Shown here: one piece after another, positions 23,801 to 40,715 of the stretch
How the letters are laid out: each line of letters begins with the position of its first letter
Position numbering within the stretch: the first letter of the stretch is position 1
Assembly: GCA_003251535.1 (NCBI GenBank)
Contig: QKFD01000110.1
Location: 1-46,032, forward strand
Direction: 5' to 3'
Length of the DNA: 46,032 nucleotides
Source: Chromatiales bacterium
Lineage (GTDB): Bacteria; Pseudomonadota; Gammaproteobacteria; Thiohalomonadales; Thiohalomonadaceae
Notes under the pieces: model-generated
Databases searched by the model: none
Told to the model about the DNA's origin: nothing
What the model saw: only the letters and a program-made list of their open reading frames with translations
Position numbers and translations under genes: made by a program

Positions 23801-24599
<799 letters not shown>

Positions 24600-24615
24600 T
24601 AAGGAGACATGTGTA

Positions 24616-24972: not shown

Positions 24973-24979
24973 GTTCCGG

Positions 24980-25004
24980 GCCCGGGGCAACTGCCCCGGG
25001 CTTT
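24980..25004 (+). terminator. Stem-loop after the ferredoxin pair
   Basis: GCCCGGGGC (24980-24988) pairs with GCCCCGGGC (24993-25001) around AACT, followed by TTT. A strong stem with a short U tract, 8 bp after the second ferredoxin stop. Confidence 0.65.
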
Positions 25005-25064
25005 GTCGAGGGACGGCCCTAACCACCTCTACGGCCAACCGTTCCCCCATCCCCTTTCTCGCTC

Positions 25065-26510
25065 TCATCCAAATAGCCCTACCCCCTGCGCTGGGCCTTG
25101 GTCCGGCTGATATATCCAGCCGTGGATACCATTGGTAGTGGCCACTACCCGCCACTCGCCACGCTGCTCGTCGCCATCCCACCAGCCACTCTCTATCCGC
25201 TCCGGTGGCTGTAACAACGCCACATTAGCGAGCCCTATCCCCTGCTCCAGAGGCGGGCTTGGGGTATTGGGGCGCAGTAGCCATACCGGGCGATGTCCTG
25301 TCGGGAGGGCAGCCGGTGGCGTGGTAGCGGTGGGATTGGGGGGGAGCGGGCACCAGGCCCGCAGCGGCCGGTGATCGGCCACTAGGGCTGGCGAGTAGAC
25401 CGCTTGGCAACCCAGGTGGGCCGTAAGCCGCTCTAGCCAGCGTTGCCAACCCGGAGTCTCTGTTTCCACTGTCTGGAATAGCGCTTGATCTTGCTGTGAT
25501 AGTGGCGCTATCTGCTCCGCCAGCAGGGTTAACCCCTCCACTGCCGCCGCCAAGGTGTGGTGCTCAAGCCGCTCCTTGAGCAGCGTCAAGAGGTGGGCTT
25601 GATCGCGGCTAGGGGCCACTAGGGTGAGTTGTAGCGTCTCTTGAGAGGCGCGGGCGTGGTGCAGGTGTAGGGTGATAGCCGTTACCCCAGCGCCGCGGCC
25701 GCGTAGAAAGCCAGTAAGCTCCAGGAGTAGCCGTTGGGCAGCAAACTGGAGCGCCGTGGCTGCTGTAGCTGCTGATGGCAGCCAGAGGGTGTGTTCAAAG
25801 CGTGCCGGTGGTACATGGCGGGGGCGTGGGTCATCAATGTGTCCAAAGGCGCGATCCAGGATGAGTAGCAGCTCGGTGCCAAAACGACGGGTCAGGCCAT
25901 TGCGAGGCAAGCGCAGACAATCGCCAAGATTGACCAGCCCCAGGGCTGCCAGCCGCTCCAGGGCGAGGGGAGCCAAGGGGAGTGTCGTGAGGGGTAAAGG
26001 GTGGAGTAGGCGGGTGAGCTGGATGCGGTCAAAGGCGGTGGCGGGCTTACCTGCCCAGGCCAGTAGTTCTGCCCCGAGTGGGGTAGGGGCGGTGGCGAGG
26101 TGGCTGCGGTAGCCAAGTTCCGACATACCGTTGGCAACTGCTGCACAGAGGCGGCTATGACCACCGAAGAGACGCAGGCTGCCCCCGATCTCCAACAGTA
26201 CGGTGTGGGGAGGGGAGAGGGCGATTCGATCACTGAATTGGAACGACCAGTCCGCAATACCCGCCAGTGCAGCCCTCTCCCGCACCGGCTCCCGTGGAAG
26301 CAGCTCAAGTTCATGGCACACACCCAAGGCGGCCGTGACCCGCATACCAGGTTCAATAGCCACATGCCGCGCCGCGGGGTTGGCACTATGGATCCACTGC
26401 TGGGGACCTTGATGGTCATAGATGGCCAGTGGTCCATGGTGATGGCGGCCACGCATGAGGCTATCGAGAGGGAGCTGAGGCAGATGCACAGCGAGCCAAA
26501 GGTCGGACAT
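25065..26510 (-). CDS. imuB: ImuB-like protein (inactive Y-family polymerase)
   Basis: 481 residues, usual for ImuB. It begins MSDLWLAVHLPQLPLDSLMR, where an active Y-family polymerase would have a catalytic Asp motif; FSDRIALSPPHTVLLEIGGSLRLFGG and LARL-type thumb helices (LERLAALGLVNLGDCLRLPRNGLTRRFG) are typical of ImuB. It ends GWIYQ ... GVGLFG, as family members do (WYLHGLF-like). In known cases ImuB links ImuA and DnaE2 to the beta clamp in SOS-induced mutagenesis. Here neither imuA nor dnaE2 is adjacent. A LexA-type box sits 28 bp upstream. Confidence 0.88.
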   Translation of the reverse strand: MSDLWLAVHLPQLPLDSLMRGRHHHGPLAIYDHQGPQQWIHSANPAARHVAIEPGMRVTAALGVCHELELLPREPVRERAALAGIADWSFQFSDRIALSPPHTVLLEIGGSLRLFGGHSRLCAAVANGMSELGYRSHLATAPTPLGAELLAWAGKPATAFDRIQLTRLLHPLPLTTLPLAPLALERLAALGLVNLGDCLRLPRNGLTRRFGTELLLILDRAFGHIDDPRPRHVPPARFEHTLWLPSAATAATALQFAAQRLLLELTGFLRGRGAGVTAITLHLHHARASQETLQLTLVAPSRDQAHLLTLLKERLEHHTLAAAVEGLTLLAEQIAPLSQQDQALFQTVETETPGWQRWLERLTAHLGCQAVYSPALVADHRPLRAWCPLPPNPTATTPPAALPTGHRPVWLLRPNTPSPPLEQGIGLANVALLQPPERIESGWWDGDEQRGEWRVVATTNGIHGWIYQPDQGPAQGVGLFG

Positions 26511-26535
26511 GGCACGGGCCGATAGTTCGGTTGGG

Positions 26536-26555
26536 AGCTGTATTTTAATACAGCT
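26536..26555 (-). promoter_or_regulatory. LexA (SOS) box in front of imuB
   Basis: AGCTGTATTTTAATACAGCT; the core CTGT-N8-ACAG (26538-26553) matches the gammaproteobacterial LexA consensus and extends to a nearly perfect 20-bp palindrome. Read toward imuB, CTGACA-N18-TAAAAT forms a possible promoter whose -10 is inside the box, so LexA would block it. SOS induction of imuB is the expected result. Confidence 0.85.
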
Positions 26556-26798
26556 ATCGTGCTGTTGTCAGTCCATTGTTCTCTGTTGGTTCTGTCTTCC
26601 GCTTTGCTCCCTCTCACCGGTCTCATGGGGGGAGCGGAGGGTCGAATGTTGGGGGTGGGTGCGAGAGTGGGGTGGTGGGCCCTAACGGGGCTAGATCTTT
26701 ACGGGATTTTTCACCCGAATGCTGTCTGCGTCATTTTCTCCCCACCCCGCTTTCGAGGAGAATGCAACATTCATGACCCGTTGATAACTGGGGAGCAT

Positions 26799-28580
26799 AT
26801 GGTCGAAACGCAGATTAAGAGGGTGGCTAAGCGCTTGGAACTAGGCTTCGTGCTGGATCTTCTGGCGGAGTCAGGGCTGCTTGACTCAGAGCGGGCCGAG
26901 CTGCTCAAAGAGCGGATCGCGGAGCGAGAGCGGCGTGAAAAACATCCTCTGACGCTGGTGGCAGATCGCAATTTTGTGAGTGCCCGTCCCCCTCACCGAC
27001 CATTGACACTGGAGTTTTTGACCGAGTGGTTGGCGAGTCAGGTGGGGCTAGCCTATCATCGTATCGATCCGCTCAAGGTTGACGTGCCCGCGGTCACCGC
27101 GGTGATGTCCTACGCCTATGCCCGCCGATACAACATATTGGTGGTCGATGTGCAGAGCGACCATGTTGTCGTCGCCACGGCTGATCCCTTTGATCGGAGT
27201 TGGGAGCAGGAGATCTCCCATATCGTTAAGCGCAGTATCCATCGGGTACTGGCCAACCCAGAGGAGATCAACCGCTACCTGGTGGAGTTTTATACCCTGG
27301 CCAAGTCGGTGCGCTCTGCCTCCGCTGACTACCAGGCCCCCAGCATGGTCCAGAACCTGGAGCAGCTGGTGGAGCTCTCCCGGGCGGGCAAGCTGGATGC
27401 CAATGACCAGCACGTGGTCAACATCGTGGACTGGTTGCTGCAATACGCCTTTGACCAACGCGCCTCAGATATCCATGTGGAGCCGCGACGGGAGATGGGG
27501 AATATCCGCTTCCGTATCGATGGCGTGATGCATCTGGTCTATCAGGTTCCGGTCCAGGTCATGGCTGCTGTCACCAGCCGCATCAAGATCTTGGGGCGCA
27601 TGGATGTGGCTGAGAAGCGCCGGCCGCAGGATGGTCGCATCAAGACCCGTACCCCCCATGGAGATGAGATCGAGCTACGCCTCTCCACGATGCCCACCGC
27701 CTTTGGTGAAAAGCTGGTGATGCGAATCTTTGATCCCACGGTGTTGGTGCGGGATTTCAGTGAGCTGGGGTTCTCTACCCAGGAGATGGATCTGTGGGAG
27801 CGGCTCATCAAGCAGCCCCACGGCATTATTTTGGTCACCGGGCCCACCGGTTCTGGTAAGACCACTACCCTCTACTCCACCCTAAAGCAGCTGGCGCGAC
27901 CAGAGGTGAATGTCTGCACCGTGGAGGACCCGATCGAGATGGTCGAGTCCAGCTTTAACCAGATGCAGGTGCAGCACAACATCAACCTCGATTTCGCTGC
28001 CGGTGTGCGTACCCTGCTGCGGCAAGACCCAGACATCATCATGGTGGGTGAGATCCGCGACTATGAGACCGCAGAGATGGCCATTCAGGCCGCCCTCACC
28101 GGTCACCTGGTCTTCTCTACCCTCCACACCAACGATGCCCCCTCCGCCATCACCCGCCTCATGGAGATCGGCGTCCCGCCCTATCTCATCACCGGTACGG
28201 TGCTGGGGGTGATGGCACAGCGTCTGGTGCGTACCCTCTGTCCTCACTGCAAGGCGCCTACCACCGTCGATGCGGACCTCTGGCGTTCACTGCTCCACCC
28301 CTTTCGTGCCCCTGAGCCAAAAAGTGCCTACAAGCCGGTGGGGTGTCTGGAGTGCCGGCAAACGGGTTACCTTGGGCGCATCGGCATCTACGAGATGATG
28401 GAGCTGACAGACAGCCTCAAGCACCTCACCAAGGCCGATCTGGATACCGATAGGTTACGTGCTGAAGCGGTGAAGGAGGGGATGCGGCCGCTGCGTCTGA
28501 ACGGGGCGCAGAAGATTAGCAACGGTCTTACCACCGTGGAGGAGGTACTTAAGGTGGTGCCATTCAGCAGCTTTGGCTGA
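26799..28580 (+). CDS. GspE/PilB-type secretion ATPase
   Basis: 593 residues from the ATG at 26799 (SD GGGGAG); the frame continues upstream to 26559 without family support. An MshEN/GspE N-terminal region comes first (about 60-190), then the ATPase core: GPTGSGKTTT Walker A (about 348), RQDPDIIMVGEIRD Walker B and Asp box, and FSTLHTNDA. A tetracysteine zinc module is present, LCPHC (about 480) and GCLEC (about 515). These hexameric ATPases power type II secretion or type IV pilus assembly. No other gsp or pil gene is adjacent, so the partner machine is elsewhere. A large imperfect stem-loop follows the stop. Confidence 0.93.
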   Translation: MVETQIKRVAKRLELGFVLDLLAESGLLDSERAELLKERIAERERREKHPLTLVADRNFVSARPPHRPLTLEFLTEWLASQVGLAYHRIDPLKVDVPAVTAVMSYAYARRYNILVVDVQSDHVVVATADPFDRSWEQEISHIVKRSIHRVLANPEEINRYLVEFYTLAKSVRSASADYQAPSMVQNLEQLVELSRAGKLDANDQHVVNIVDWLLQYAFDQRASDIHVEPRREMGNIRFRIDGVMHLVYQVPVQVMAAVTSRIKILGRMDVAEKRRPQDGRIKTRTPHGDEIELRLSTMPTAFGEKLVMRIFDPTVLVRDFSELGFSTQEMDLWERLIKQPHGIILVTGPTGSGKTTTLYSTLKQLARPEVNVCTVEDPIEMVESSFNQMQVQHNINLDFAAGVRTLLRQDPDIIMVGEIRDYETAEMAIQAALTGHLVFSTLHTNDAPSAITRLMEIGVPPYLITGTVLGVMAQRLVRTLCPHCKAPTTVDADLWRSLLHPFRAPEPKSAYKPVGCLECRQTGYLGRIGIYEMMELTDSLKHLTKADLDTDRLRAEAVKEGMRPLRLNGAQKISNGLTTVEEVLKVVPFSSFG

Positions 28581-28612
28581 GCTGGGAAAGGGGAGACCTA
28601 GCTGAAGGAGAG

Positions 28613-28672
28613 ACAAGGGGCCCAGGAGAGAGGGGGGGATTTATACAATTTTCCCTCCATCTGGCCCCTTGT
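28613..28672 (+). repeat. Long imperfect inverted repeat between gspE-like and pqqD-like genes
   Basis: ACAAGGGGCCCAG (28613-28625) pairs with CTGGCCCCTTGT (28661-28672) with a single bulged C, and the interior purine run AGGGGGGGA can continue against TTCCCTCC. No U tract follows, so it is not a standard terminator. Its role is unknown; a transcript end or a regulatory leader of the operon that begins at 28782 are both possible. Confidence 0.6.
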
Positions 28673-28781
28673 ATCATAAGATATGTGACCCATAGCACAG
28701 AACCTGTGACTTTCAACCATTGCGTATCCAGTTGTATGATGGGGCGTCTCTGGCTGACCAATACCGTGGTTTCTCATTTCA

Positions 28782-29189
28782 ATGTCTCTCTCCTCCGCAC
28801 TTTCTACCTCTACTGTCTTCATCCTGCGCCCTGATGTGGTGGTGACCCTCCTCGATGAAGGGGCTGTACTGCTGGATCTCGACACCAAGTTCTTCTACTC
28901 CGCCAACGGTGGGGCGTGGGGCATTGTGCAGCTGTTTGAGGCGGGCGCGACTATCGATCAGGTCCAGGCCCAGTGCCGGGCGTGGGGGGCCGATGAGGGG
29001 GCCATGGAGGCCGTGGAGAGGGTGATTGCCACCCTGCTGGCGGACGCTCTGCTGAGTGAGGCTACAACCCCGGCCGAGACCACCGTCCCAGGTTGCCAGT
29101 GGAGTGTGCCGCAGCTGGAGAAACATAAGGAGCCGCTCCAAAAGATCATGGTGAGCGCCTTCGATCCCTCCATTCCACTCGCTGAATAA
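28782..29189 (+). CDS. PqqD-family peptide chaperone with a C-terminal tail
   Basis: 135 residues. Residues 15-92 have the PqqD/RRE fold pattern, LRPDVVVTLLDEGAVLLDL (beta strands), then ANGGAWGIVQLFEAGATIDQVQAQ (winged-helix part). PqqD-like domains bind RiPP precursor peptides and present them to modifying enzymes. After a Thr/Ala-rich linker (93-105), a tail of about 29 residues follows with W107, VPQLEKHKEPLQKIM and FDPSIPLAE, which is not part of the PqqD fold. NCBI names related proteins as HPr-rel-A system PqqD family chaperones. It is the first gene of the operon; the ATG lacks a good Shine-Dalgarno, and a leader of 200 bp precedes it. Confidence 0.82.
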   Translation: MSLSSALSTSTVFILRPDVVVTLLDEGAVLLDLDTKFFYSANGGAWGIVQLFEAGATIDQVQAQCRAWGADEGAMEAVERVIATLLADALLSEATTPAETTVPGCQWSVPQLEKHKEPLQKIMVSAFDPSIPLAE

Positions 29190-29208
29190 CCCAGATATAC
29201 CGCGCCTG

Positions 29209-30195
29209 ATGGCCTCCTCCCCGTATCTCTGCGGGCCGGTGCGGGTACAGATCGACCAAGACCCCCTCGGTTTTGTATCCAGGCTAGAGCCCGCTCTGGA
29301 TCTATACACCGCCCCCTGGGAGGGGCCGCGTGTCGATCTCTCGCTCGTCTTGGCACCGGCTGACAGCGTATCGCCAGCGATGGTCGCGCCCTACCTCGAT
29401 GCCGCCCGAATGGTGGTATTTCGTACCGCTGGCGGCCTCGCCGCCCGCTGCGACTCCGGCGCGACCGTGCGCTGGGAATCCCAGACGGGGCAGTGGCAGG
29501 TGGGGGTGCCACCCCCGCCCGCTGATATCTGGTCAACCACCGATCTAGAGAATCTGGTTAGCCTAATCCTGACCACCGCCTGGCGTGGTCTCGGCTGGAC
29601 CCCATTCCATGCCGGTCTTGTGGCACGGGGAGAGGCGGGACCGGCGGCGATGCTCTGCGCCCCCTCTGGGGGTGGCAAAACCACGCTCACCCTTGCCCTC
29701 ATCCGCCGTGGCTGGCACACCTTGGGTGATGACAAGCTGCTGCTGCGCCCCCAGGCTGGGGGAGGGGTGGAGGCGCGGGCACTGGTCCATAGCTTCAACC
29801 TCTATCCCCATACCCGTCGCTGGTTTGATGAGGTGGGCGATCTGGCGGCCCTACCCAACTACTCGGTGTGGACCGATAAGCGGCGGGTCCCCATTGCCCG
29901 TTTGGCGCCTGACGCGGCGATCGAGCGGGCCTGCCCGACCCACGCCCTACAGGTCACCCAGAGCGAGGCCCATAGCCGAGTTGTGGTGACGCCGCTCCCG
30001 GCGGGAGAGTTGCTGTCCCTCCTACTGCGTCAGACGGTGATCCCCCGTGACCCCGCCACTGCCCGCTCGATTATGGCCACTGTGGCGGCGTTGGCGGCCA
30101 CAGTGGTGGGACTTCGGGTAGAGATAGGCCGCGATGCCTATCTTGACCCCACCTGTCTCGAACCACTGGAACAGGCACTGGGGGTGGTGACGTGA
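29209..30195 (+). CDS. HprK-related kinase
   Basis: 328 residues. The C-terminal half resembles HPr kinase/phosphorylase: FHAGLV, P-loop APSGGGKTTLT (about 151-161), then RRGWHTLGDDKLLLRP. The N-terminal half is not the HprK N-domain and is unrecognised. Family members occur next to PqqD-like and nucleotidyltransferase genes, and in lasso-peptide loci similar kinases phosphorylate the peptide. The substrate here is unknown. It starts 19 bp after the pqqD-like gene, and its stop overlaps the next start (GTGA). Confidence 0.85.
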   Translation: MASSPYLCGPVRVQIDQDPLGFVSRLEPALDLYTAPWEGPRVDLSLVLAPADSVSPAMVAPYLDAARMVVFRTAGGLAARCDSGATVRWESQTGQWQVGVPPPPADIWSTTDLENLVSLILTTAWRGLGWTPFHAGLVARGEAGPAAMLCAPSGGGKTTLTLALIRRGWHTLGDDKLLLRPQAGGGVEARALVHSFNLYPHTRRWFDEVGDLAALPNYSVWTDKRRVPIARLAPDAAIERACPTHALQVTQSEAHSRVVVTPLPAGELLSLLLRQTVIPRDPATARSIMATVAALAATVVGLRVEIGRDAYLDPTCLEPLEQALGVVT

Positions 30196-31079
30196 CCGTT
30201 GTGAGTGTGGTCATCCCGGTATTGAACGGTGCCGAGATGATTGGCGACACCCTGCGAGCGGTGCTGGGCCAGGCCAGGGCAGGGGCGGAGTTGGAGGTGA
30301 TTGTGGTGGATAACGGTTCCACCGACGCCACCTGTGAGGTGGTGAGTCACTTCCCCGTGACGCTGCTCCATGCGGCGGTGCCGGGGGTCAGCGCCGGCCG
30401 CAATGTGGGGCTGGCGGCCTGCCGCGGGGATATCTATATCAATGTTGATGCCGATACCCTGCCGAGCCGCACCTGGTTGCGAGAGCTGCTACGCCCGTTT
30501 GATGATCCGGCGGTGGTACTGGTCGGGGGGCGGACCATCTCCTTTCGGCCCGAGAGCGGGGCCGAGCGTTATATCGAGCGCGCCGGGCTATTTCGGCCGG
30601 AAAATAGCGTACATAACCCCGATCTACCGTTTGTCATCGGCTGTAACTTAGCGGTGCGCACCACCGCCGCCCGCGCCATCGGGGGGTGGGATGAGGGGAT
30701 GGTACGGGGCGAGGATATCGACTTCTCCGTGCGGCTGCGGCGCGCCTTTCCGGCCCCCATCCACTACCGCGAAGAGGCGGTACTGTTTCACCGCAATCGT
30801 AGTGATGAGCGGGCCTTAGCGGCCCAAGCCCATGGATATGGCTACGGCATGGCGCTCATCTATCGCCGCTACCCTGAGCAACTGCATTTCAATGCCGGGC
30901 GCCAGCTGCGCGCCCTGCGCCTGGTGGTTGAGCGGACGGTGTGGCCACCATTACTGTGGATCGGTCATCGGTGGGGGCGGGTGAGCGGCGAAGAGCTGGA
31001 GTTCGCCCGTTTCCATCGCCTCTGGACCAACGCCTTCTGGCGTGGTTTTTTCAGTACTTGGTATGGTCGGAGAGAGTGA
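30192..31079 (+). CDS. GT2 family glycosyltransferase (first)
   Basis: 295 residues with a GTG start overlapping the previous stop. The GT-A fold is plain: SVVIPVLNGAEMIGDTLRAV, IVVDNGSTDAT, NVDADTLPS (metal-binding DxD), and RGEDIDFSVRLRRA. It ends in a helical region with HGYGYGMALIYRRYP. GT2 enzymes transfer a sugar from a nucleotide sugar with inversion. No membrane anchor is clear. The next gene is a second enzyme of the same family with the same GYGYG element, so the pair probably act in sequence on one glycan or peptide. Confidence 0.93.
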   Translation: MTVVSVVIPVLNGAEMIGDTLRAVLGQARAGAELEVIVVDNGSTDATCEVVSHFPVTLLHAAVPGVSAGRNVGLAACRGDIYINVDADTLPSRTWLRELLRPFDDPAVVLVGGRTISFRPESGAERYIERAGLFRPENSVHNPDLPFVIGCNLAVRTTAARAIGGWDEGMVRGEDIDFSVRLRRAFPAPIHYREEAVLFHRNRSDERALAAQAHGYGYGMALIYRRYPEQLHFNAGRQLRALRLVVERTVWPPLLWIGHRWGRVSGEELEFARFHRLWTNAFWRGFFSTWYGRRE

Positions 31080-31080
31080 C

Positions 31081-31959
31081 ATGCGTGTCTCCGTGGTCAT
31101 TCCCGCCTATAACGCCAGCGCCACCCTCGGTGAGTGTCTGCGCGCCCTCGCCAACCAGCGGTTGGCGCAGGCGGAGTATGAGGTGATTGTGGTGGACGAT
31201 GGCTCCCGTGATACCACCGCCGCCATTGCCCGCACCTTCCATCCCGTGCGCCTCATCCGTCAGCCCAACCAGGGGGCTCCCGCCGCCCGTAATTGCGGCA
31301 TTGCCGCCGCCCGCGCACCTTGGATCGCCTTTACGGATGCCGACTGCATCCCCTCCCGCGGGTGGCTGGCCGCCCTCTTGGCAGCGGTGGAGGGGCAGGT
31401 AGATAGGCCCATGGGGGTCGCGGGGCGCACCGTGGGCCACCAATCTCTCTCCCCTGCCGCTCACTATGTCGATCTGGCGGGGGGGCTCGATGCCGAGCGC
31501 CACCTCGCCCACCCCACCTTCCCCTTCGCCCCGAGCGGTAATGTGCTCTACCGGCGCGATCTATTGGAGCGGGTGGGGGGCTTCGATGAGCGCTTCCACA
31601 CCTACGATGCCTGCGACCTCCATACCCGTCTGTGCCGCCTGGACTCAGGTCCCATGCTCTTTGCCGCACGGGCCGTGGTATTACATCGACACCGTGACAG
31701 CTGGCCTGCCTACTTCCGCCAACAACGGGGCTATGGCTACGGTTATGGCCAGTTTGCTTGGCACTACCGCTCCGCCATGACCTGGGGGATTGGCCGTGAG
31801 CTGGCTGCCTGGTGGCAGCTGGTCCGGCTGGGCGGAGGGGCGTTGCTGCCCGGAGGGGCGGCGGCATTGGTGCGGCGGGGTCACTTTGTGAAGGCGCTGG
31901 CACAACGGATCGGCTTTCTGGACGCCTACTACAGTCCACGCGAACGGGAACGGTGGTGA
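31081..31959 (+). CDS. GT2 family glycosyltransferase (second)
   Basis: 292 residues from the ATG at 31081, with GGAGAG 7 bases upstream; a longer start at 31042 is inside the previous gene and rejected. Motifs: SVVIPAYNASATLGECLRAL, IVVDDGSRDTTAA, AFTDADCIPS (DxD), FAPSGNVLYRRDLLERVGGFDERF. The usual GEDxDLxxRL motif is changed to YDACDLHTRL. It shares the RQQRGYGYGYGQ segment with the first enzyme, suggesting duplication. The stop overlaps the next GTG. Confidence 0.92.
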   Translation: MRVSVVIPAYNASATLGECLRALANQRLAQAEYEVIVVDDGSRDTTAAIARTFHPVRLIRQPNQGAPAARNCGIAAARAPWIAFTDADCIPSRGWLAALLAAVEGQVDRPMGVAGRTVGHQSLSPAAHYVDLAGGLDAERHLAHPTFPFAPSGNVLYRRDLLERVGGFDERFHTYDACDLHTRLCRLDSGPMLFAARAVVLHRHRDSWPAYFRQQRGYGYGYGQFAWHYRSAMTWGIGRELAAWWQLVRLGGGALLPGGAAALVRRGHFVKALAQRIGFLDAYYSPRERERW

Positions 31960-32444
31960 GTAGACCCCCACCGCGCTGGAGCCTGGCCGGAGTGCTGTGG
32001 CGCGTGCGCAACACCTTCCATAGCCCGGCAGATCTCTGGCTGGCGCTGCGTATCGGCCGCTTTATCCACACCCTACCGGAGCAGCTGGACCAGGCGGCGC
32101 TCCCTGCCATGTTGGCGCAGATCGCGGCAGCCCCCCGGCCCCCGGCGCCCGATCTCGCCGCAGGTGTGGCGCGTATCGCCCGTCTCCGGGGTCTCTGGCT
32201 GCGGCGGCGGCGTTATCGGGGGCGCGACACCTGCTATCTCCGCGCCTTGACCCTATTCCGTTTCCTCGATACCGGGGGGCGCCCAATGCACATCCACTTT
32301 GGAGTGGAGCCGGACCCGGCGGCGGGGCGCCACCGGGGACACGCCTGGATCACCGTCGATGGGATAGCCTGGGAGCCGCCGGAGGCGGTGGTGGCGGAGC
32401 GGACTCGGGAGCTGTTTGTCTACCCCAGCCGAGAGCGGCCATGA
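31956..32444 (+). CDS. Lasso-peptide B2-type transglutaminase-like protease
   Basis: 162 residues from the GTG at 31956 (GTGA overlap); the frame extends upstream inside the previous gene without sense. The catalytic triad of the B2 family (transglut_core3) is visible: C93 in GRDTCYLRALTLFRFL, H129 in RGHAWITVDG and D135. In lasso-peptide biosynthesis B2 is the Cys protease that removes the leader peptide, guided by a separate B1/PqqD-like RRE. Here the PqqD-like protein at the operon start could play that part. No lasso cyclase is in the window, so the product is not simply a lasso peptide. Confidence 0.88.
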   Translation: MSRPPPRWSLAGVLWRVRNTFHSPADLWLALRIGRFIHTLPEQLDQAALPAMLAQIAAAPRPPAPDLAAGVARIARLRGLWLRRRRYRGRDTCYLRALTLFRFLDTGGRPMHIHFGVEPDPAAGRHRGHAWITVDGIAWEPPEAVVAERTRELFVYPSRERP

Positions 32445-33673
32445 GTAGTGCCCTCCCGCTGTTTGAACTAATCCACGGTGCCGATGCGCGGGCCGCGGCG
32501 GCGGCTACGGCCATCACCCAGGCCGGGGAGTGGGACTGGACCCTCCAGTTGGCACAGGCGTGGCGTGTGTTGCCGCAATTGGGGCAGCGGCTACGGCAGC
32601 TGGGGGTAGCTCTGCCGGTGGCGTTGGCCCAACGGCTCGCTGCGGCGGCGACGGAGAGCGCCATGCGCAGCGGGTATGCCGCCCGCCGAGCCGGAGCCCT
32701 GGCCCAACAGTTGGCAGCCGCCGGCATCCCGGCGGCTGCCTTCAAGGGGATCGCCGCCCTGGCCTATCTCCACCGCTCACCGGCGGAGCGGATGTTGGGG
32801 GATATCGATCTCCTGATTCGAGAGCAGGACCTCGCGGCCATCGTGGCGGCCCTGGCCGCTATCGGTTTCCTCCCAACGGTGGGGAGTGCGGCAGCAGACG
32901 CAGTGCAGTCGCACATCAGCGCCCGGCAAGATAACCACGGCGCTACCCTGGCCGATGGTGAGGGGCTGGAGGTGGATCTCCACTGGCGACTGCGGGGAGG
33001 AGCCCAGCAGCTGTTGGAGGGGGCACTCTGGCAACGGGTGGCACCGCAGCCGCTGCTGCGTCAACCGGTGCCCATGGTCGCCCCCATCGATGCCTTGCTG
33101 CTGAGTACCCACCACGCCCTGCGTAACGATCTATCCCCTTTTCCCACGGTGCGGGACCTGAGCGACCTGCACGGCTATTGGCGCCGCGTCGGCTGCGACT
33201 ACTCGGTGGCAGAACTCGCCAGCCTGGCCAGCCTGACGGGTCTAGCGGCACCGCTCCTGGGGCTACTACAGGCACTGGAGGCGGTGGCGGCGATCCCGGC
33301 CGCCGATCCCGCCTTGGCCCAACTGCGAGAGCAGTGTGGCAGGCGCGTGGTGGTCGAGGGGGATCGGCTGTATGACTGGTTCCGCGGGCGCCTGGAGCGG
33401 CCGGTGCGGACCGGTTATGGGGTACAGGATCTACTGCTGCTACTGGCCGATCCCCCGGCTGTAGGGCGGTTGTTGCGGGACCGGCTGCGAGAGCGGCTGC
33501 GGGCAGGGCCAACCTCCCAGCGGCAGCGGCGGGAGGCGGTGTTGGGGAGTGACGGTAACCGTTTGCGGGCCATCGCTGCGGTGGCGCTGGGGATGGACCT
33601 TCGCCAGTGGCGTCGTGCTTGGGCGGTGGCGCGTGCCCAGCGGCGCGCCTTTAAAGGCGGCGGCGACCGGTGA
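32441..33673 (+). CDS. NTP_transf_5 family nucleotidyltransferase
   Basis: 410 residues, ATGA overlap with the previous gene. The diagnostic stretch is AAFKGIAALAYLHRSPAERMLGDIDLLIRE (about 101-130), with GDIDLL the metal-binding Asp motif of the pol-beta nucleotidyltransferase fold, followed by LEVDLHWRL. This is the uncharacterised nucleotidyltransferase family that recurs in RiPP-type and HprK/PqqD loci. Transfer of a nucleotide to a sugar, peptide or small molecule is possible; the substrate is unknown. Very high Ala and Arg content is in keeping with the GC of this operon. Confidence 0.85.
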   Translation: MSSALPLFELIHGADARAAAAATAITQAGEWDWTLQLAQAWRVLPQLGQRLRQLGVALPVALAQRLAAAATESAMRSGYAARRAGALAQQLAAAGIPAAAFKGIAALAYLHRSPAERMLGDIDLLIREQDLAAIVAALAAIGFLPTVGSAAADAVQSHISARQDNHGATLADGEGLEVDLHWRLRGGAQQLLEGALWQRVAPQPLLRQPVPMVAPIDALLLSTHHALRNDLSPFPTVRDLSDLHGYWRRVGCDYSVAELASLASLTGLAAPLLGLLQALEAVAAIPAADPALAQLREQCGRRVVVEGDRLYDWFRGRLERPVRTGYGVQDLLLLLADPPAVGRLLRDRLRERLRAGPTSQRQRREAVLGSDGNRLRAIAAVALGMDLRQWRRAWAVARAQRRAFKGGGDR

Positions 33674-35136
33674 GCAAGGGCACTCCCTCGCCGGCGGTTG
33701 GAGTGCCACAGGGTGGATTGCGGCGGCTGATGGTGGCCTCGATGTTACTGCTCTCTGGCCGCCAGCTGATCGGCATGATGCTCTCCTTTGGTCGGCTAGC
33801 CCTTATCGTGACGCTGCTGGCCCCAGCCGATTATGGGCTCTATGCCGTCGCAGCGGGTCTCATGACCTATATCACTGCCGTTGGCAGCCTGGGGATCGGT
33901 ACTTACTTGATCCGTGCCACGGAGATGGACCCTGTGCGCATTGGGACGGCGCGGGCGTTGCTCCTGGCGGTGGGGGGCAGCACCACTCTCCTGGTGTGGT
34001 TGCTGGCACCGGCCTTGGGGCGGTGGTATGAGGCCCACGCACTGGTGCCACTCCTCATGCTCCAGGCGCTGACCGTCCCCGTCGAGCTACTCAAGATCAT
34101 TCCCCTCGGCCTGGCAGAGCGGGAGCTGGCCTACCGGCGGATTGCCACCATCGATCTGGGGGCCGAGCTATTCGGCTTTCTCTTCGCCTTCGCCGTGGTT
34201 GCCACCACCCGCTCACCCATCGGGCTGGCCCTGGCGGCCCTGCTGCAACAGGCGCTGGCCCTGATCCTGTATAGCCGGGTAACGGGGGAGTGGCGGACCG
34301 TGGCATGGGCGCGAGAGGAGGTGAGGGCACAGCTCCGTTTTGGTTTGGGATTGGGGCTGGTGGACTGGGTATGGCAGCTGCGTCTGTTGGTCAACCCCCT
34401 TTTGGTGGCCAAATTGCTGGGGGCTGAGGCGGCGGGGCTTGTGGCCGTGGCGGTGCGGCTGGCGGATGTGGGGGGGGTATTGCGCCATATCATCTGGCGG
34501 ATCTACCTCGCCGGTGCTGCCAAGTTGCGGCGCGACGGCCGGGCCCTAGGCGAGGCGTTGGCGGAGGTGCAGAGCGGGCAGCCGCTGGCGGTGGGGGCCT
34601 GTCTTGTGCTGCTGGTGGCGTTGGCACCGGAGCTGGTGGCGTGGATGCCCCATGAGGCGGGTTGGCACCAGCTCATGTCGTTGCTGCCACTGCTGGTGGC
34701 GGCGGTAGCGGTCAATGCCGGCTTCAATCTCTACGGCGGGACCTTGGTACTCTTGGGGGCGCTACGCCCCATGGTGATCTTTAATTCCATTCTGGTTCTG
34801 CTGTTCTACCTCAGTGCCCTGGTGATGTTGCACCTGGATGCCAGTATCCGTAGCTACGGCATTGCCGAGCTGTGTGCCGCCTGTGGCTATCCCCTGGTAC
34901 TCATCCCGCTCAAGCGCCGGCTAAGCAGCGTGCGGAGCTGGCCCGCTCACATCAATCTGGTGCTGGTGCTCCTGCTGTTGGCACTGGTCACCCAGCTGCT
35001 GGCAACGCCGCTCTGGCTACGGCTGCTGGTGGTGGTGGGCGGTATTGCGGCCATTGTCGGGACGCTGCCCAGTAATCGGCGGCTAGTGGGCCAGCTGCTG
35101 GCCCTACGGCGACAGCGGGCCATGGCCATCGCCTAG
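33670..35136 (+). CDS. Wzx-type oligosaccharide/polysaccharide flippase
   Basis: 488 residues, GTG start with a 4-bp overlap. About 12-14 hydrophobic helices; the N-terminus (MLLLSGRQLIGMMLSFGRLALIVTLLAPADYGLYAVAAGLMTYI) and the pattern of glycines and small residues are those of the PST/MOP flippase family, which moves lipid-linked glycans across the inner membrane. Last gene of the operon, with the two glycosyltransferases it implies that a sugar-bearing product is exported. No polymerase or initiating sugar-phosphate transferase is in the window. Confidence 0.9.
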   Translation: MSKGTPSPAVGVPQGGLRRLMVASMLLLSGRQLIGMMLSFGRLALIVTLLAPADYGLYAVAAGLMTYITAVGSLGIGTYLIRATEMDPVRIGTARALLLAVGGSTTLLVWLLAPALGRWYEAHALVPLLMLQALTVPVELLKIIPLGLAERELAYRRIATIDLGAELFGFLFAFAVVATTRSPIGLALAALLQQALALILYSRVTGEWRTVAWAREEVRAQLRFGLGLGLVDWVWQLRLLVNPLLVAKLLGAEAAGLVAVAVRLADVGGVLRHIIWRIYLAGAAKLRRDGRALGEALAEVQSGQPLAVGACLVLLVALAPELVAWMPHEAGWHQLMSLLPLLVAAVAVNAGFNLYGGTLVLLGALRPMVIFNSILVLLFYLSALVMLHLDASIRSYGIAELCAACGYPLVLIPLKRRLSSVRSWPAHINLVLVLLLLALVTQLLATPLWLRLLVVVGGIAAIVGTLPSNRRLVGQLLALRRQRAMAIA

Positions 35137-35203
35137 TCTGTTTGGGCGCGTAGCCCTCCCTTGGCATCCCACTCGGCAATCAAGCGTGTTAGCCGGCGGA
35201 TGG

Positions 35204-36067
35204 TCACTGCGGGCGCCGGAGTAACAGGCGGAGGCGCACATCGACCGTCACCGCTAGTTGGTCGAGGGCGGCGGCGGCCAGTTTGCCGGCGTGGGGGGCG
35301 CGGTAGAGGTGGGGGGTCATGGTGAGTAGATCGGTCAGTTGTTGCCGATCCAAGGGGGCTGTGCGGTAGTGCAGGGCACGCTCGGTGAGGAGTTCAAAGC
35401 CGCAGGCCAGCGCTTCGGTCAGTGACGGTGGCGGCCGGCGGCGTACCTCTGGATAGATCACCTCCCGCAGCTCCAGCAGATGCTCCTCCGCACCATCCAC
35501 CAGCAGCAGGTGGCCACCCAGGCGTAACATCTCGGCGAAGGGGGTAAAGGTGGGGAAACCAAACATGCAGAAGAGCAGATCTAATGATGCACTCTGTAGG
35601 CAGGGGGTGCGATGGGTGGCCACCAACCAGGTGATGTCGCGCCGGCGCCTGCTCGCCGCCTGTACCGCCGGTTTGGCAATATCCCAGCCGATGAGCTGGG
35701 CCGCCTCGGGGCGCCCCTGGGCGGCTAGGGTGTGGGCGAGTCGTGCCAGATAGTACCCCTCACCGCAGCCGGCGTCGGCGATACGCGGTATCCCCTCCGT
35801 TGGCAGATAGGCCACTATTAGCTCATTGAGCAGATCCGAAATGGGGCGATAGAGCCCACTATCGAGTAGGCGACGGCGTGCCTCCACCATCCCCTTGCTG
35901 TCTCCCGGTTCCCGCGAACGTTTGGCCTGGACCGGCAGCAGGTGAAAATAGCCCTGCCGTGCCTGATCGAAGCGGTGGCCGTGGGGGCAGGCCAGGCCAC
36001 CCGGGAGGCTGGTCAGGGGGGTGCTGTCGAGGGGGCAGATCAGATTATCGGCGGGGAGCAGTTGCAT
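35204..36067 (-). CDS. rlmA: 23S rRNA (guanine-N1)-methyltransferase RlmA-like
   Basis: 287 residues (E. coli RlmA 269). The N-terminal zinc-finger region ICPLDSTPLTS ... LACPHGHRFDQARQGYFHLLPVQAKRS is almost that of RlmA, and the GDSKGMVEARRRLLDSGLY segment is diagnostic. SAM binding: IADAGCGEGYYLARL. It methylates G745 of 23S rRNA (hairpin 35) in E. coli. The second zinc ligand, Cys in E. coli (CPLC), is Asp here (CPLD, D14), leaving C11, C27 and H31. Convergent with the flippase operon. The catalytic part looks intact. Confidence 0.92.
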   Translation of the reverse strand: MQLLPADNLICPLDSTPLTSLPGGLACPHGHRFDQARQGYFHLLPVQAKRSREPGDSKGMVEARRRLLDSGLYRPISDLLNELIVAYLPTEGIPRIADAGCGEGYYLARLAHTLAAQGRPEAAQLIGWDIAKPAVQAASRRRRDITWLVATHRTPCLQSASLDLLFCMFGFPTFTPFAEMLRLGGHLLLVDGAEEHLLELREVIYPEVRRRPPPSLTEALACGFELLTERALHYRTAPLDRQQLTDLLTMTPHLYRAPHAGKLAAAALDQLAVTVDVRLRLLLRRPQ

Positions 36068-36549
36068 GGCACAGGTTCGCTTCAGATTGGGCAGGCATAC
36101 TACCCCAGTCGGGTCTGGGCGATCTGACCCTGCGGCAGGTGGCTTCCCCTCCTGGTGGTGATATCATCCACCGCCTTAAGATATCAGGTGTCGGGATCGT
36201 GAGCAGAACCATTATCAGCCTGGCCCAGGAGGAGAGACGCCGGTTGGCGCAGGGGGTTGGGCGAATGGCGACAGTGAGGGGTTGCGATCCCTATACCCGG
36301 CAGGTGGACGGTAACCGGATGTAGCGCGTTGAAGCGACTCATCGACTCTGTGATTTTAATGGACCACCTTACTGGCCTCCCTGGTGCCACCCATGCCATG
36401 CGGCGGGTGGTGCGGGCTGCGGCGGTCCGCGCGGCCGAGCGGGCCGCGGTGCGGTGCCATGGCGATGGCATCAAACTGGCTGCTGCCTGGCCAGCGGCCA
36501 CCGCATGTCGCCACGCTTGGCTGCTCTCCCGCTGCTGGAAGGGGGGGCT
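36068..36549. other. Intergenic stretch before the HDOD gene
   Basis: About 480 bp without a supported gene. Directly before the HDOD gene, an open frame (36278-36553) reads LKRLIDSVILMDHLTGLPG, which is like the entry to a GGDEF domain; see findings. No promoter is clear. Two GATATC words (36160s and 36180s) flank the sequence ATCCACCGCCTTAA. Confidence 0.35.
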
Positions 36550-36553
36550 GTGA
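36278..36553 (+). pseudogene. Possible remnant of a GGDEF-domain gene
   Basis: Open frame from 36278 to the stop at 36551-36553, overlapping the HDOD start by 4 bp. LIDSVILMDHLTGLPGATHAMRRV resembles the start of GGDEF domains (DPLTGLPNR), but the rest is Ala/Arg-rich and no GGDEF motif follows. It could be a decayed domain or chance. A TTG at 36329 or the ATG at 36359 could start a short peptide. Confidence 0.2.
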
Positions 36554-37401
36554 GCACTAGTCAGGCCCGCCTCATTGCCATGGTGGACCGGATGCCGGCC
36601 TTCCCGCAGACCGTGGGGCGCATCCTTGAGATGACCGCTCGCCCCGACTGCTCCCCCAAGGACCTGGTCAAGGTGGTGGAGCACGATCCGGTCATGACCA
36701 TGAAGATCCTGCGCTTGGTCAACTCCGCCTACTTCGGCCTGACCCGCACCATCCGCTCCATCAACCACGGGGTGGTGATGGTGGGGATCAACACGGTGAA
36801 GAACGTAGCGCTCTCGGTGGCCGCCATGGGGATGCTACCGCGCAAGAACCAGGCCGGTTTCGACACCAACGAGTTCCTGCTCCACTCGTTGGGGGTGGCT
36901 ACGGTGGCTAGGCTGTTGGCCGGCCGTATCGGGGTGGGGGAGAAGTCGGCCCCAGACTACTTTGTGGCGGGCCTGCTGCACGACTTCGGTAAGGTGGTGC
37001 TGGCGCAGTTCATGCCGGAGGAGCTACGCCGGGCGCTAGAGCTGGCGATGGATGGCAGCCAGTCGCTGCATCTGGCGGAGCGGACGGTGATCGCCTCCGA
37101 TCACGCCGAGATCGGCGGATTGCTGGCGGCCAGCTGGCAGCTATCGCCGGAGTTGGTGGGCTGTATCCGTCACCACCACGACCTCAGCGTGAACGGGGAT
37201 TGGGGCATCATGCGAGATTGTGTCTTCGCCGCCAACCAGATCGTCCGTAGCCTCGGCTTTGGTGATTCCGGCAATCGGGTCATCGAGTCGTTCCCTCCGG
37301 CCCTGGAGGAGCGCTTTGGCCATGACCTCCCAGAGCTGATCGAGACCATTGGCGATATCACCCAAGAGCTGGAGAAGGCGAAGATATTCTTGAAGTTGTA
37401 G
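36550..37401 (+). CDS. HDOD-domain signalling protein
   Basis: 283 residues from the GTG at 36550, with GGAAGGGGGG upstream. The HDOD pattern is clear: MPAFPQTVGRILEMTARPDCSPKDLVKVVEHDPVMTMKILRLVNSAYFG, SINHGVVMVGINTVKNVALS, and LLHDFGKVVLAQFMPEE. The HD pair and later His residues (SDHAEIGGLLAASW, CIRHHHD) are kept. HDOD proteins usually act as output or adaptor modules in c-di-GMP and chemotaxis signalling; catalysis is unproven. 62 bp upstream of a metallo-hydrolase gene, possibly one transcript. Confidence 0.92.
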   Translation: MSTSQARLIAMVDRMPAFPQTVGRILEMTARPDCSPKDLVKVVEHDPVMTMKILRLVNSAYFGLTRTIRSINHGVVMVGINTVKNVALSVAAMGMLPRKNQAGFDTNEFLLHSLGVATVARLLAGRIGVGEKSAPDYFVAGLLHDFGKVVLAQFMPEELRRALELAMDGSQSLHLAERTVIASDHAEIGGLLAASWQLSPELVGCIRHHHDLSVNGDWGIMRDCVFAANQIVRSLGFGDSGNRVIESFPPALEERFGHDLPELIETIGDITQELEKAKIFLKL

Positions 37402-37463
37402 CCGCCCTCGCCTACAGTCGGCAACCGCTGACCGTTTCATAGACCATCGGGAGGGCAGTGCCC

Positions 37464-38351
37464 ATGCGATTTACCCTCTGGGGCGTGCGTGGCTCCATCC
37501 CTGTCCCCGGGCCGCATACCCTGCGCTACGGGGGCAACACCACCTGCATCGAAGTGCGTACCGATGATAATGATCTCATCATCTTCGATGCCGGTACTGG
37601 CATTTTCCAGCTCTCCCAGACCCTATTTAAGGAGATGCCGCTCAAGGCCCATCTCTTTATTACCCATACCCACTGGGACCATATCCAGGGGCTCCCCTTC
37701 TTTATCCCCATCTTTATCCCAGGCAACTCCATTCGCATCCACGGCGCCGCCGATCCAGTGACCCAGCGTGGCATCAGCGATGTGTTGGCCCGGCAGATGG
37801 AGTACGCCTACTTCCCGGTGCGAGAGGCGGAGCTGAATGCCCGCATCGAGTACGTCAACCTCCATGAGCGGCAGGAGGTGCAGGTGGGGTGCGCCAAGAT
37901 CACCAACCTGCTACTCAACCATCCGGTGCTCAACTACGGCTATCGCGTGGAGTGCAACGGCAAGAGTCTGGTGTTTACCGGCGACCACGAGTGGCCCTAC
38001 AACATCTATACGCCGGAGGATGACTACTTCGAAGAGTTCGAGGAGATGGTGGCGGAGAAGCGGGCGGGGATCATGGAGTTCTTCCGTGGTGTTGACGCCC
38101 TGATTATCGACACGGCCTACACCATCGAGGAGTATCCGAGCAAACTCGGTTGGGGCCACGGCACCTTTGATGCCAGTATCGCCGCCGCCCGTGAGGCGGG
38201 GGTCAAGCGGGTCTATCTCACCCACCATGAGCCCAACCGTAGCGATGACCGGCTGGAGCAGGTGTTCCAGGAGGCGGTGGCCCGGGCCGCCCTCGGTCCA
38301 GGAGATCCCGAGGTGGTGCTGGCCCGCGAGGGGCTGACCATCGAGTTGTGA
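37464..38351 (+). CDS. Metallo-beta-lactamase-fold hydrolase
   Basis: 295 residues from the ATG at 37464, with GGGAGGG about 9 bases upstream; the GTG at 37458 is too close to it. Starts MRFTLWGVRGSIPVPGPHTLRYGGNTTCIEV, the typical beginning of this subgroup. Metal site: H68, H70, D72, H73 in THTHWDH, then a later His (LNHPV), the Asp of FTGDHE and the His pair of LTHHEPNRSDD. The fold suggests hydrolysis of a phosphodiester or cyclic nucleotide (RNase Z/PhnP-like), but the substrate is unknown. Lies behind the HDOD gene in the same direction, consistent with a signalling role (inference). Confidence 0.9.
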   Translation: MRFTLWGVRGSIPVPGPHTLRYGGNTTCIEVRTDDNDLIIFDAGTGIFQLSQTLFKEMPLKAHLFITHTHWDHIQGLPFFIPIFIPGNSIRIHGAADPVTQRGISDVLARQMEYAYFPVREAELNARIEYVNLHERQEVQVGCAKITNLLLNHPVLNYGYRVECNGKSLVFTGDHEWPYNIYTPEDDYFEEFEEMVAEKRAGIMEFFRGVDALIIDTAYTIEEYPSKLGWGHGTFDASIAAAREAGVKRVYLTHHEPNRSDDRLEQVFQEAVARAALGPGDPEVVLAREGLTIEL

Positions 38352-38704
38352 GGGTTCTGGATCCCACCCTCCTGACGAGGGTGGCGCCTGGGTGCATCGC
38401 CCCTAGCGGGGGCGCCGCGGCCGAGAGGCCGATTCTGCGGCGCGAACGGGGCGGTGCATCCCCTCCATAGAGCGCGCTGGGTCACTGCGGGGCAATGTTG
38501 GTGGTCGGCGCTGGGGCGGCTACCTGGCGCGCTGTTGTCTCCTAGCGGTGAACTCTCGCCGCGATAGCCGGCTTCTCGCCCCTAGCGGGATTGCCTCCTC
38601 CATATTGGCAAGGGAGAATCCCCCCGGCCGCCCAGGCGCCATTTTGCCCCTCAGCCTCCCGCCGTGGGGCCTACCCCAATTTCCCCCTCCCTGGAGAAGA
38701 ACCC
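38352..38704. repeat. Structured intergenic region with TAGCGG repeats
   Basis: About 350 bp. Successive stem-loops: CCACCCTC/GAGGGTGG (38364-38384), CGCCCC/GGGGCG (38398-38414), and a nested GCGCCGC...GCGGCGC with inner GGCC-GAGA-GGCC (38412-38443). The 13-mer CGCCCCTAGCGGG occurs twice exactly (38398-38410, 38577-38589), with a third partial copy TCCTAGCGG (38540-38548). The first stem could terminate the upstream gene but has no U tract. A promoter for the five-gene operon at 38705 should lie here but is not clear. Confidence 0.55.
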
Positions 38705-39616
38705 ATGGCAGTGAGCGAGTATCTGGATACCTTCTTTGGTCGGCCGGTGCTGGATTTCACCAGCGGAGATACGGTGACCGATCAGAGCGCAGTCTATCGG
38801 TTGCGGCAGGAGTATGACGCCGAGCAGAGCCAGGCCGAGCTATTGACGGAGTTCCTGGGCCAGGTGGTGCCGGAGGAGCTGGAGGCGCTGATGCTCGGTG
38901 CGTGGTCCGATATGTCGGATAACTCCTGCGATGATTTCTTGGAGGCGCTGGTGGCGCGGGCGGCGCAGCTGCCGCAGCTGCGGGCCCTGTTTATCGGCGA
39001 CCTCACCTATGAAGATAGTGAGATCTCCTGGATCATCCAGGGGAACTACGCCACCCTGCTGGCCGCCTTCCCCGCCTTGGAGGTGCTGCGCATTCGAGGC
39101 GGTGAGTCGCTCTTCTTCCCGGCGGTTGAACACCCAGCGCTACGGGAGCTGGTCATCGAGACGGGGGGGCTGCCGAGCCGGGTGGTGAACGCCATCGCTG
39201 AGAGTACCTTGCCGGCACTGCGCCACCTGGAGCTGTGGTTAGGTGACGAGAACTACGGCTTTGATGGCGACATCGATACCTATCGCCAGCTCTTGGAGCG
39301 GATCCGGCCGGAGCGGCTCCACTACCTCGGCCTGCGCAACGCCACCATCAGTGATGAGCTGGCCATCTATCTCGCCACCCAGCCGTGGTTGGGCAAGCTC
39401 CACACCCTGGACCTCTCCATGGGCACCCTGGGGGATGATGGCGCCCGCGCCCTGCTGGCCTCCCCCTATCTGGAGGGGCTACAGGTGCTGGATCTGGAGT
39501 ACCACTACATCAGTGATGAGCTGGTGGCGCAGTTGCAGCGGCTCCCCTGCGAGGTGCGTATTGGCGAGGCGGAGGAGGAGTACGACGGCGACCGCTATGT
39601 GCAGGTCGGCGAGTAG
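38705..39616 (+). CDS. STM4015-family LRR-like protein
   Basis: 303 residues from the ATG at 38705, with GGAGAAG upstream; a longer frame to 38591 is unlikely. From about residue 90 it consists of leucine-rich repeat-like units (LPQLRALFIGDL, FPALEVLRIRGG, HPALRELVIETGG, LPALRHLELWLG, LHYLGLRNATIS, LHTLDLSMGTLGDDGARALL, LQVLDLEYHYIS), i.e. a likely curved protein-binding surface. Such a protein next to the four enzymes listed below identifies it as the STM4015 member of a locus first seen in Salmonella. It has no catalytic motif and no signal peptide; probably an adaptor or substrate-holding protein. The next gene starts directly at its stop. Confidence 0.85.
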   Translation: MAVSEYLDTFFGRPVLDFTSGDTVTDQSAVYRLRQEYDAEQSQAELLTEFLGQVVPEELEALMLGAWSDMSDNSCDDFLEALVARAAQLPQLRALFIGDLTYEDSEISWIIQGNYATLLAAFPALEVLRIRGGESLFFPAVEHPALRELVIETGGLPSRVVNAIAESTLPALRHLELWLGDENYGFDGDIDTYRQLLERIRPERLHYLGLRNATISDELAIYLATQPWLGKLHTLDLSMGTLGDDGARALLASPYLEGLQVLDLEYHYISDELVAQLQRLPCEVRIGEAEEEYDGDRYVQVGE

Positions 39617-40714: not shown

Positions 40715-40715
40715 G

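Follow-up and report, generated by a model that had tools for sequence, protein, structure and literature searches.

A PqqD-fold protein with a precursor-like C-terminal tail in a conserved operon of kinase, protease and glycan genes

The described systems closest to the locus reported here are the phosphorylated lasso peptides and the pathway of linear polyphosphorylated peptides (LPP). In the Bsf lasso precursor the leader motif YxxPxL occupies positions -17 to -12 and the leader has Ile as its last residue but one (in relatives also Val); Ser3 of the core is phosphorylated by the kinase, aided by the RRE, i.e. the recognition element of ribosomally synthesized and post-translationally modified peptides (RiPPs) (PMC10368454). 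The corresponding landmarks of LPP are Tyr-16, cleavage after Thr-1 and a phosphorylated Ser3 (PMC13381572). PsmN, annotated as a nucleoside triphosphate (NTP) transferase, adds hexoses to phosphoserine in pseudomycoidin, where a host enzyme is not excludable (PMC9266682), and LppN was inactive in its test host (PMC13381572). RREs fused to enzymes, glycosyltransferases among them, have also been described (RRE-Finder and its 2025 successor). Here we analyse a seven-gene operon at positions 28782-35136 of the window, i.e. the whole 46,032-nucleotide stretch of contig QKFD01000110.1 (Chromatiales bacterium), in which the RRE protein, PqqD, ends in a precursor-like tail.

The evidence places the precursor of this system in the last 29 residues of PqqD itself, and the operon probably directs the synthesis of a linear phospho-glycopeptide RiPP, for which its own RRE protein would supply the C-terminal tail and no lasso cyclase would be needed. 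The idea of a phosphorylated, glycosylated peptide product goes back to a first-pass annotation of this DNA; it is partly supported by the sequence comparisons given below and appears to be the best reading of the module. The same annotation saw no obvious precursor, which holds for a separate gene but not for the tail of PqqD. The features of the operon are as follows.

28782-29189, + strand: pqqD, RRE protein of 135 amino acids with a C-terminal precursor-like tail
28812-29069, + strand: RRE (PqqD-fold) domain, residues ~11-96, from the AlphaFold2 (AF2) model and VIA-align
29100-29186, + strand: PqqD tail W107-E135, 29 residues (WSVPQLE...EPL, then SAFDPSIPLAE), from conservation in 11 PqqDs
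29151-29186, + strand: predicted core VSAFDPSIPLAE, residues 124-135, if B2 uses the lasso register
29154-29156, + strand: Ser125, candidate phosphoserine in the core, as is Ser130 (registers of PMC10368454 and PMC13381572 applied to the tails)
29209-30195, + strand: HprK-like kinase, 328 amino acids, with His134, Lys157, Asp174 and Asp175 (family scan, alignment)
30192-31079, + strand: GT2a glycosyltransferase, 295 amino acids (family scan)
31081-31959, + strand: GT2b glycosyltransferase, 292 amino acids (family scan, tblastn)
31956-32444, + strand: B2, lasso-B2-type (Transglut_core3) cysteine protease, 162 amino acids (NF033537 above cut-off)
32441-33673, + strand: NTP5, NTP_transf_5 nucleotidyltransferase-like protein, 410 amino acids (PF14907)
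33670-35136, + strand: MOP (Wzx-like) flippase, 488 amino acids (PF13440)

All seven open reading frames (ORFs) were confirmed as one operon, and the 4-bp overlaps that had been described as prevailing in it were found at 4/6 junctions (hprK/GT2a, GT2b/B2, B2/NTP5 and NTP5/flippase). The sequence gives gaps of 19 bp (pqqD-hprK) and 1 bp (GT2a-GT2b) for the other two, with GT2b starting at an ATG (31081) and B2 at a GTG (31956).

The C-terminal tail of PqqD

Each of the 11 PqqD proteins found has at its C-terminus a tail of 29 residues that aligns without gaps, WxxPx(L/I/V/M)...EPL...SAFDPS(I/V)PL(A/V)E. Counting the tryptophan as position 1, the columns invariant in 11/11 are W1, P4, E11, P12, L13, S19, A20, F21, D22, P23, S24, P26, L27 and E29; position 6 is I in eight proteins and L, V or M in one each, and position 16 is V in five, L in four and I in two. 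Invariant columns account for 14/29 of the tail, 15/~92 of the RRE part and none of the linker (Fisher p 0.0009, a guide only, the rows being related and three of them nearly identical). With the tails of loci L013, L049 and L051 near-identical, the 11 amount to about nine independent ones. The stretch preceding the tail, taken by a fixed script offset, is variable and 16 to 26 residues long. The tail codons differ synonymously (in the window Ser24 is TCC rather than AGC), and the tail is kept in locus L055, although the next gene there is a different one; a constraint at the DNA level or from gene overlap therefore does not explain it.

A DNA pattern for FDPS(I/V)PL was detected exactly once per genome in 11/11 genomes, always at the end of pqqD, and the reversed pattern, used as a control, gave 0 matches in the same genomes. 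No such tail was present in 30/30 best PF05402 and 30/30 best TIGR04353 proteins of the window's phylum (these 60 control PqqDs being the best-scoring matches with loci, from 150 and 378 genomes), and viral contigs gave 0 matches to the tail pattern.

When the tail is aligned with the known registers, W1 corresponds to the aromatic residue and position 16 (I/L/V) to the -2 residue of Bsf, and Ser19 stands at the same distance from the aromatic as Ser3 of LPP, one residue closer than Ser3 of Bsf. The tail appears, by this comparison, to have the leader motif and the register of phosphorylated lasso and LPP precursors, and a lasso-type cut after tail position 17 would release VSAFDPSIPLAE from the window protein.

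The AF2 model of the window PqqD, built on the 11-row alignment, has the RRE fold (pLDDT 80.7) and a strand at residues 112-114, inside WSVPQLEK; block means are 77 and 78 over residues 101-120, and 52 and 49 beyond residue 120, where the end is disordered. For the L050 homologue the corresponding values are 51 in the linker (91-100), 81 and 79 over residues 101-120, with a strand at 111-113, and 55 and 53 at the end. The solved structures nearest to both models, among the matches listed, are the lasso B1-leader complexes 5v1v, 5v1u and 6jx3, the best Foldseek E-value among these matches being 1.5e-3. VIA-align to 5v1v_A gave Z 10.9 for the window model (residues 11-95) and 10.8 for that of L050, over 85 residues. 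In both models the alignment with 4wd9, the complex of NisB with the NisA leader, extends as far as model residues 121 and 120, and the chain numbers in it go up to 1020, presumably past the end of NisB; we read this alignment as the tail strand occupying the place of the NisA leader.

A separate precursor was sought among 80 ORFs of 25-130 amino acids bearing (Y/W)xxPx(L/I/V/M/F/A), taken from window positions 22001-42000 and 12 loci. No ORF matched across loci at E 1e-3 except among the near-identical L013, L049 and L051 (best value otherwise 0.007), and L055 had none of these motif-bearing small ORFs. Seven loci of distant kinases were also searched for small ORFs with a loosely defined aromatic-xxP motif close to the end (L015, L018, L019, L021 and L023 being left out). 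They yielded two ORFs, a glycine-rich one of 151 amino acids in L017 and one of 71 amino acids in L022, neither of them PqqD-like in appearance.

These results bear on the possibility that the tail is a built-in pseudo-leader, acting as an auto-inhibitor or as a docking clip for the kinase or B2 in the RRE groove, and that the true substrate is encoded elsewhere. Near-invariance to the final residue is what would be expected of a binding motif, and the precursor search was limited to motif-bearing ORFs of the stated size within the loci. Nevertheless, the loci contain no conserved candidate substrate, and outside pqqD the 11 genomes have no copy of the end motif; nowhere in the protein is conservation higher than in the segment past the leader motif, which a clip could do without, and a leader peptidase is always present. 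We regard this explanation as unlikely, although it deserves to be kept in view.

Conservation of the operon in relatives

The first relative was identified by a contig scan using exact 8-mers of one kinase, so that other phyla may hold the system unseen by it. The scan yielded L013, a contig of the metagenome-assembled genome 'bacterium isolate YF1.bin76' (G385), in which pqqD, the kinase gene and GT2a lie in the operon order and the contig ends in GT2a; upstream of them are sugar-transferase, glycosyltransferase and UDP-sugar-dehydrogenase-like genes (these three read by eye). Kinase matches at E < 1e-50 were found in 10/98 relatives of G385 (15/98 at E 0.001), and 149 genomes of its phylum gave the same ten and one remote match. 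The window genome is absent from the matches among these 149, though it would score near the top, and therefore most probably belongs to a phylum other than that of the relatives. Within the window's own group, no further true kinase orthologue was seen in three overlapping genome samples; kinase matches occurred there in 3/56, 11/369 and 3/398 genomes, counting that of the window; all others were P-loop matches, either short or weak.

The operon order, or versions of it cut by contig ends, is present in ten genomes of another phylum. Loci L049, L051, L052, L053+L054 and L050 carry pqqD, kinase, GT2a, GT2b, B2, NTP5 and a Wzx-like gene (cut by the contig end in L050; the kinase is split between the two contigs of L053+L054). 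In L046 and L048 genes of an ABC ATPase and an ABC-2 permease precede pqqD, kinase, GT2a, GT2b, B2 and NTP5, and L047 (G432) has the same order without GT2a. Genome G440 contributes L055 (pqqD, NAD epimerase, kinase, then the contig end) and the rearranged L056 (GT2a, kinase, GT2b, B2, NTP5, Wzx-like). With such recurrence in a second phylum, the linkage of the seven genes is, on the evidence of gene order, not due to chance. The tie between the RiPP-type module and the glycan genes that the first-pass annotation had pointed out is thus both physical and evolutionary, and its proviso that the small proteins might prove unlinked elsewhere was not borne out: pqqD, kinase, B2 and NTP5 occur with at least one GT2 gene wherever the locus is long enough.

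That the small proteins are chance neighbours in an ordinary surface-polysaccharide operon is accordingly disfavoured by the kept order. GT2s and a flippase are by themselves ordinary glycan genes, but pqqD, kinase, B2 and NTP5 stay with GT2 in two phyla even when the exporter is swapped, and we consider this explanation very improbable.

Judging from gene content, the exporter is exchangeable, a polysaccharide-type exporter being found in every locus with enough flank. The Wzx-like genes of L049, L050 (partial), L051, L052 and L056 were assigned by tblastn to that of L054 (42-51% identity). The Pfam flippase cut-off was reached in L052 and L054 only, L051 being below it and L049, L050 and L056 having no flippase family, and tblastn at 1e-6 detected no relation between the window flippase and those of the other loci. 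A tree of concatenated GT2b, B2 and NTP5 places the window with L046-L048, a grouping that the GT2b tree alone does not give. NTP_transf_5 proteins form two well-separated groups, matching the exporter type (ABC-2 or Wzx-like) among the relatives; that of the window sides with the ABC-2 loci despite the flippase of the window. RpoB was dropped as a distance measure, PF00562 having no match in G000 (listed as 95.56% complete), G424 and G432.

Several further observations concern individual relatives. G440 has two kinase copies, one behind a tailed pqqD and one in the rearranged operon, where the contig breaks off at the pqqD end. In L055 a NAD-dependent epimerase (1278-2054) separates pqqD from the kinase, and in L049 (8403-11135), L051 and L052 an epimerase of this kind and the flippase share a reading frame. 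One TGA interrupts each of the kinase matches of G387 (L030/L049) and G432 (L028/L047), which may stem from an upstream extension, an error or decay. On plasmids there was one weak match to the kinase but none to PqqD (E 1) or to GT2b (1e-60).

Enzymes and proposed pathway

Five of the seven proteins were assigned or placed clearly: both GT2s by PF00535, the nucleotidyltransferase by PF14907 (117.7 bits, cut-off 31.2), B2 by NF033537 (38.7 bits, cut-off 33) and PF13471 (41.6, cut-off 26), and the MOP flippase by PF13440 (104.1 bits, cut-off 23). Matches of PqqD (PF05402 16.2 bits, cut-off 23.4; NF033530 27.4, cut-off 70) and of the kinase (TIGR04352 28.2 bits, cut-off 200; PF07475 11.8, cut-off 33.3) are weak. 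In searches with TIGR04353 the window PqqD is unlisted at E 1 and G000 has no match at 0.01, and the label 'HPr-rel-A type' given to the pair in the first-pass annotation had to be abandoned, since neither protein reaches the cut-offs of TIGR04352/TIGR04353-type models. The catalytic residues are conserved. His134, Lys157, Asp174 and Asp175 of the kinase are kept in 12/12 rows spanning them (the L054 row covers the C-terminal part only) and correspond to the His-Lys-Asp-Asp motif of lasso kinases (PMC9266682). The Cys and the GHAW His of B2 are kept in 10/10 rows. PF14907 was above its cut-off in 8/8 other loci scanned, the NTP_transf_5 gene of L047 being found by tblastn. GT2b shares 53-60% identity (tblastn) with its copies in the nine other loci reaching the gene in full, and the best NCBIfam match of both GT2s is MftF (TIGR03965; 142.4 and 150.2 bits, cut-off 280).

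The lasso cyclase model NF033535 was above its cut-off in 0/11 genomes; 9/11 have no match at all, and none lies in the operon, in agreement with the first-pass annotation. Sub-cut-off matches occur in G000 and G424; in G000 three asparagine-synthase-like places (C106, C90 and C82) match the model, the best with 212 bits against 525. Rings of lasso peptides comprise 7-9 residues. A lasso peptide locus with its cyclase elsewhere in the genome would be in keeping with the lasso type of B2 and RRE and with these sub-cut-off matches, but it is disfavoured by the cyclase counts and by the acidic residues of the predicted core, which stand at 5 and 12, so that a ring of 7-9 residues is impossible; we consider it extremely improbable. 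No SpI-like (SipW) leader peptidase was found among the seven operon proteins and no MsbA-like transporter at the loci, where the exporters are a MOP flippase (window) or an ABC-2 ATPase and permease (L046-L048).

In the pathway that we propose, the WxxPx(L/I/V/M)E segment would dock in the RRE groove, in cis or on a neighbouring copy, and so offer the last dozen residues. The HprK-like kinase would phosphorylate an invariant serine, most likely Ser125, and the phosphoserine would receive a glycan through NTP_transf_5 and the two GT2s. Cleavage near Met123|Val124 would be the task of the B2-type protease, freeing approximately VSAFDPSIPLAE with its decoration, and the product, or a glycan primed by it, would be exported by a glycan-type exporter, i.e. 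the MOP flippase here and an ABC-2 pair in some relatives.

Several points weigh against this pathway. PqqD and the kinase are below every curated cut-off. In its near-invariance the core departs from most RiPP cores, and a docking or regulatory tail fits this as well; moreover, tail positions 7-15 deviate from the LPP consensus. MOP and ABC-2 exporters usually carry lipid-linked glycans, not peptides. Docking of the tail in the groove is likely, but it is deduced from the strand, the model confidence and the alignment range rather than from coordinates. We infer the phosphorylation, glycosylation, cleavage and export, as well as where the tail is cut, in which order the steps follow and what is exported, and the chemistry of LppN and PsmN is uncertain in the source papers (PMC13381572, PMC9266682).

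It is also conceivable that PqqD stays whole as a protein carrier, the glycan being built on the tail phosphoserine and later transferred or released, in which case the product would not be the peptide. Two GT2s accompany the exporter wherever a locus has enough flank, and L013 and L049 lie beside additional glycan genes, as would suit a carrier. On the other hand, the B2-type peptidase is kept in 10/10 loci reaching it and the register of the tail is that of a lasso precursor cut by B2, and we find the carrier role rather improbable.

The operon is flanked by a gene for a GspE/PilB-type ATPase on one side and one for an RlmA-type methyltransferase on the other, and among the window ORFs scanned no additional polysaccharide gene adjoins it; a DegT/DnrJ/EryC1 aminotransferase gene lies at 44961-45980. 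GC content was rejected as a sign of transfer: the operon has 0.62-0.69, yet the 40-44 kb region is as high and some upstream windows reach 0.66. At gathering cut-offs the sole Rfam match is a tRNA. At 38591-43703 (+ strand) the window carries a cassette of an STM4015-like leucine-rich repeat protein, an ATP-grasp protein of the STM4014 family (274 bits to NF038074, cut-off 175), a sulfatase-like protein that falls slightly short of its cut-off and a pair of radical SAM proteins, of which one is below its cut-off. We take this to be the STM4011-STM4015 set; such a cassette near the operon is possibly a second modification cassette.

Comparison with known systems

No RRE-precursor fusion is described in the open-access literature searched, most subscription literature lying outside that search, and the fusion is likely to be novel. 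RiPP mining seeks a small precursor gene next to an RRE, and a precursor fused to the RRE escapes it; no precursor had been recognized at this locus in the first-pass annotation. That the core is nearly invariant across two phyla speaks for a structural or cofactor-like role, not for an antibiotic. The operon may even represent a self-substrate RiPP class, with recognition element and precursor in one chain, whose nearly invariant phospho-glycopeptide of about 12 residues serves in two phyla as a cofactor-like molecule or as the primer or anchor of an exported glycan, although we would lean slightly away from so wide a claim. Phosphopeptide RiPPs are linked to capsule loci in a role that Popov et al. 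called unknown (PMC13381572), and here this link is testable on one gene via its last codons.

The HPr-rel-A cassette (TIGR04352 kinase, TIGR04353 PqqD) resembles the operon in having a PqqD-fold protein beside an HprK-related kinase, but the operon proteins are below the model cut-offs, and in the window's phylum the 30 best-scoring TIGR04353 proteins are tailless. In borosins the modifying enzyme and the core peptide share one chain; the operon is similar in this self-substrate principle, except that the core is carried by a non-catalytic recognition domain instead of a catalytic methyltransferase. Mycofactocin, a cofactor-like product, has a nearly invariant core, as is predicted for the operon. 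It is a RiPP cofactor glycosylated by a GT2 enzyme, MftF (PMC7491314), and MftF is the best NCBIfam match of both GT2s of the operon; these differ in being below the MftF cut-off and in standing in an operon without a radical SAM enzyme.

With the phosphorylated lasso peptides (paeninodin, pseudomycoidin, Bsf; PMC9266682, PMC10368454) the operon shares the RRE, an HprK-like kinase with the His-Lys-Asp-Asp residues, B2 and the NTP transferase, and its tail is like Bsf-type precursors in the Ile/Val at leader position -2 and in a Ser close to where the core begins, the residue that carries the phosphate in Bsf (PMC10368454). In contrast to these systems, it lacks a cyclase, a separate precursor gene and a ring residue at 7-9, and it adds glycosyltransferases. 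The LPP pathway (Popov et al. 2026, PMC13381572) also combines an RRE, an HprK-like kinase and an NTP transferase without a lasso (macrolactam) cyclase, has an aromatic-xxP leader motif with a Ser 18 residues past the aromatic, and is associated with capsule or exopolysaccharide genes. It differs in its separate precursor gene (YxxPxVLxHQxIxFETxxS, against a WxxP tail fused to the RRE), in its SipW-like SpI peptidase and MsbA-like transporter (against a B2-type protease and a MOP or ABC-2 exporter) and in its variable cores, and the two GT2s belong to the operon. Since neither the separate precursor and SpI peptidase of LPP nor the cyclase of the lasso pathways was found on testing, the operon, although probably close to both pathways in its working, is a member of neither.

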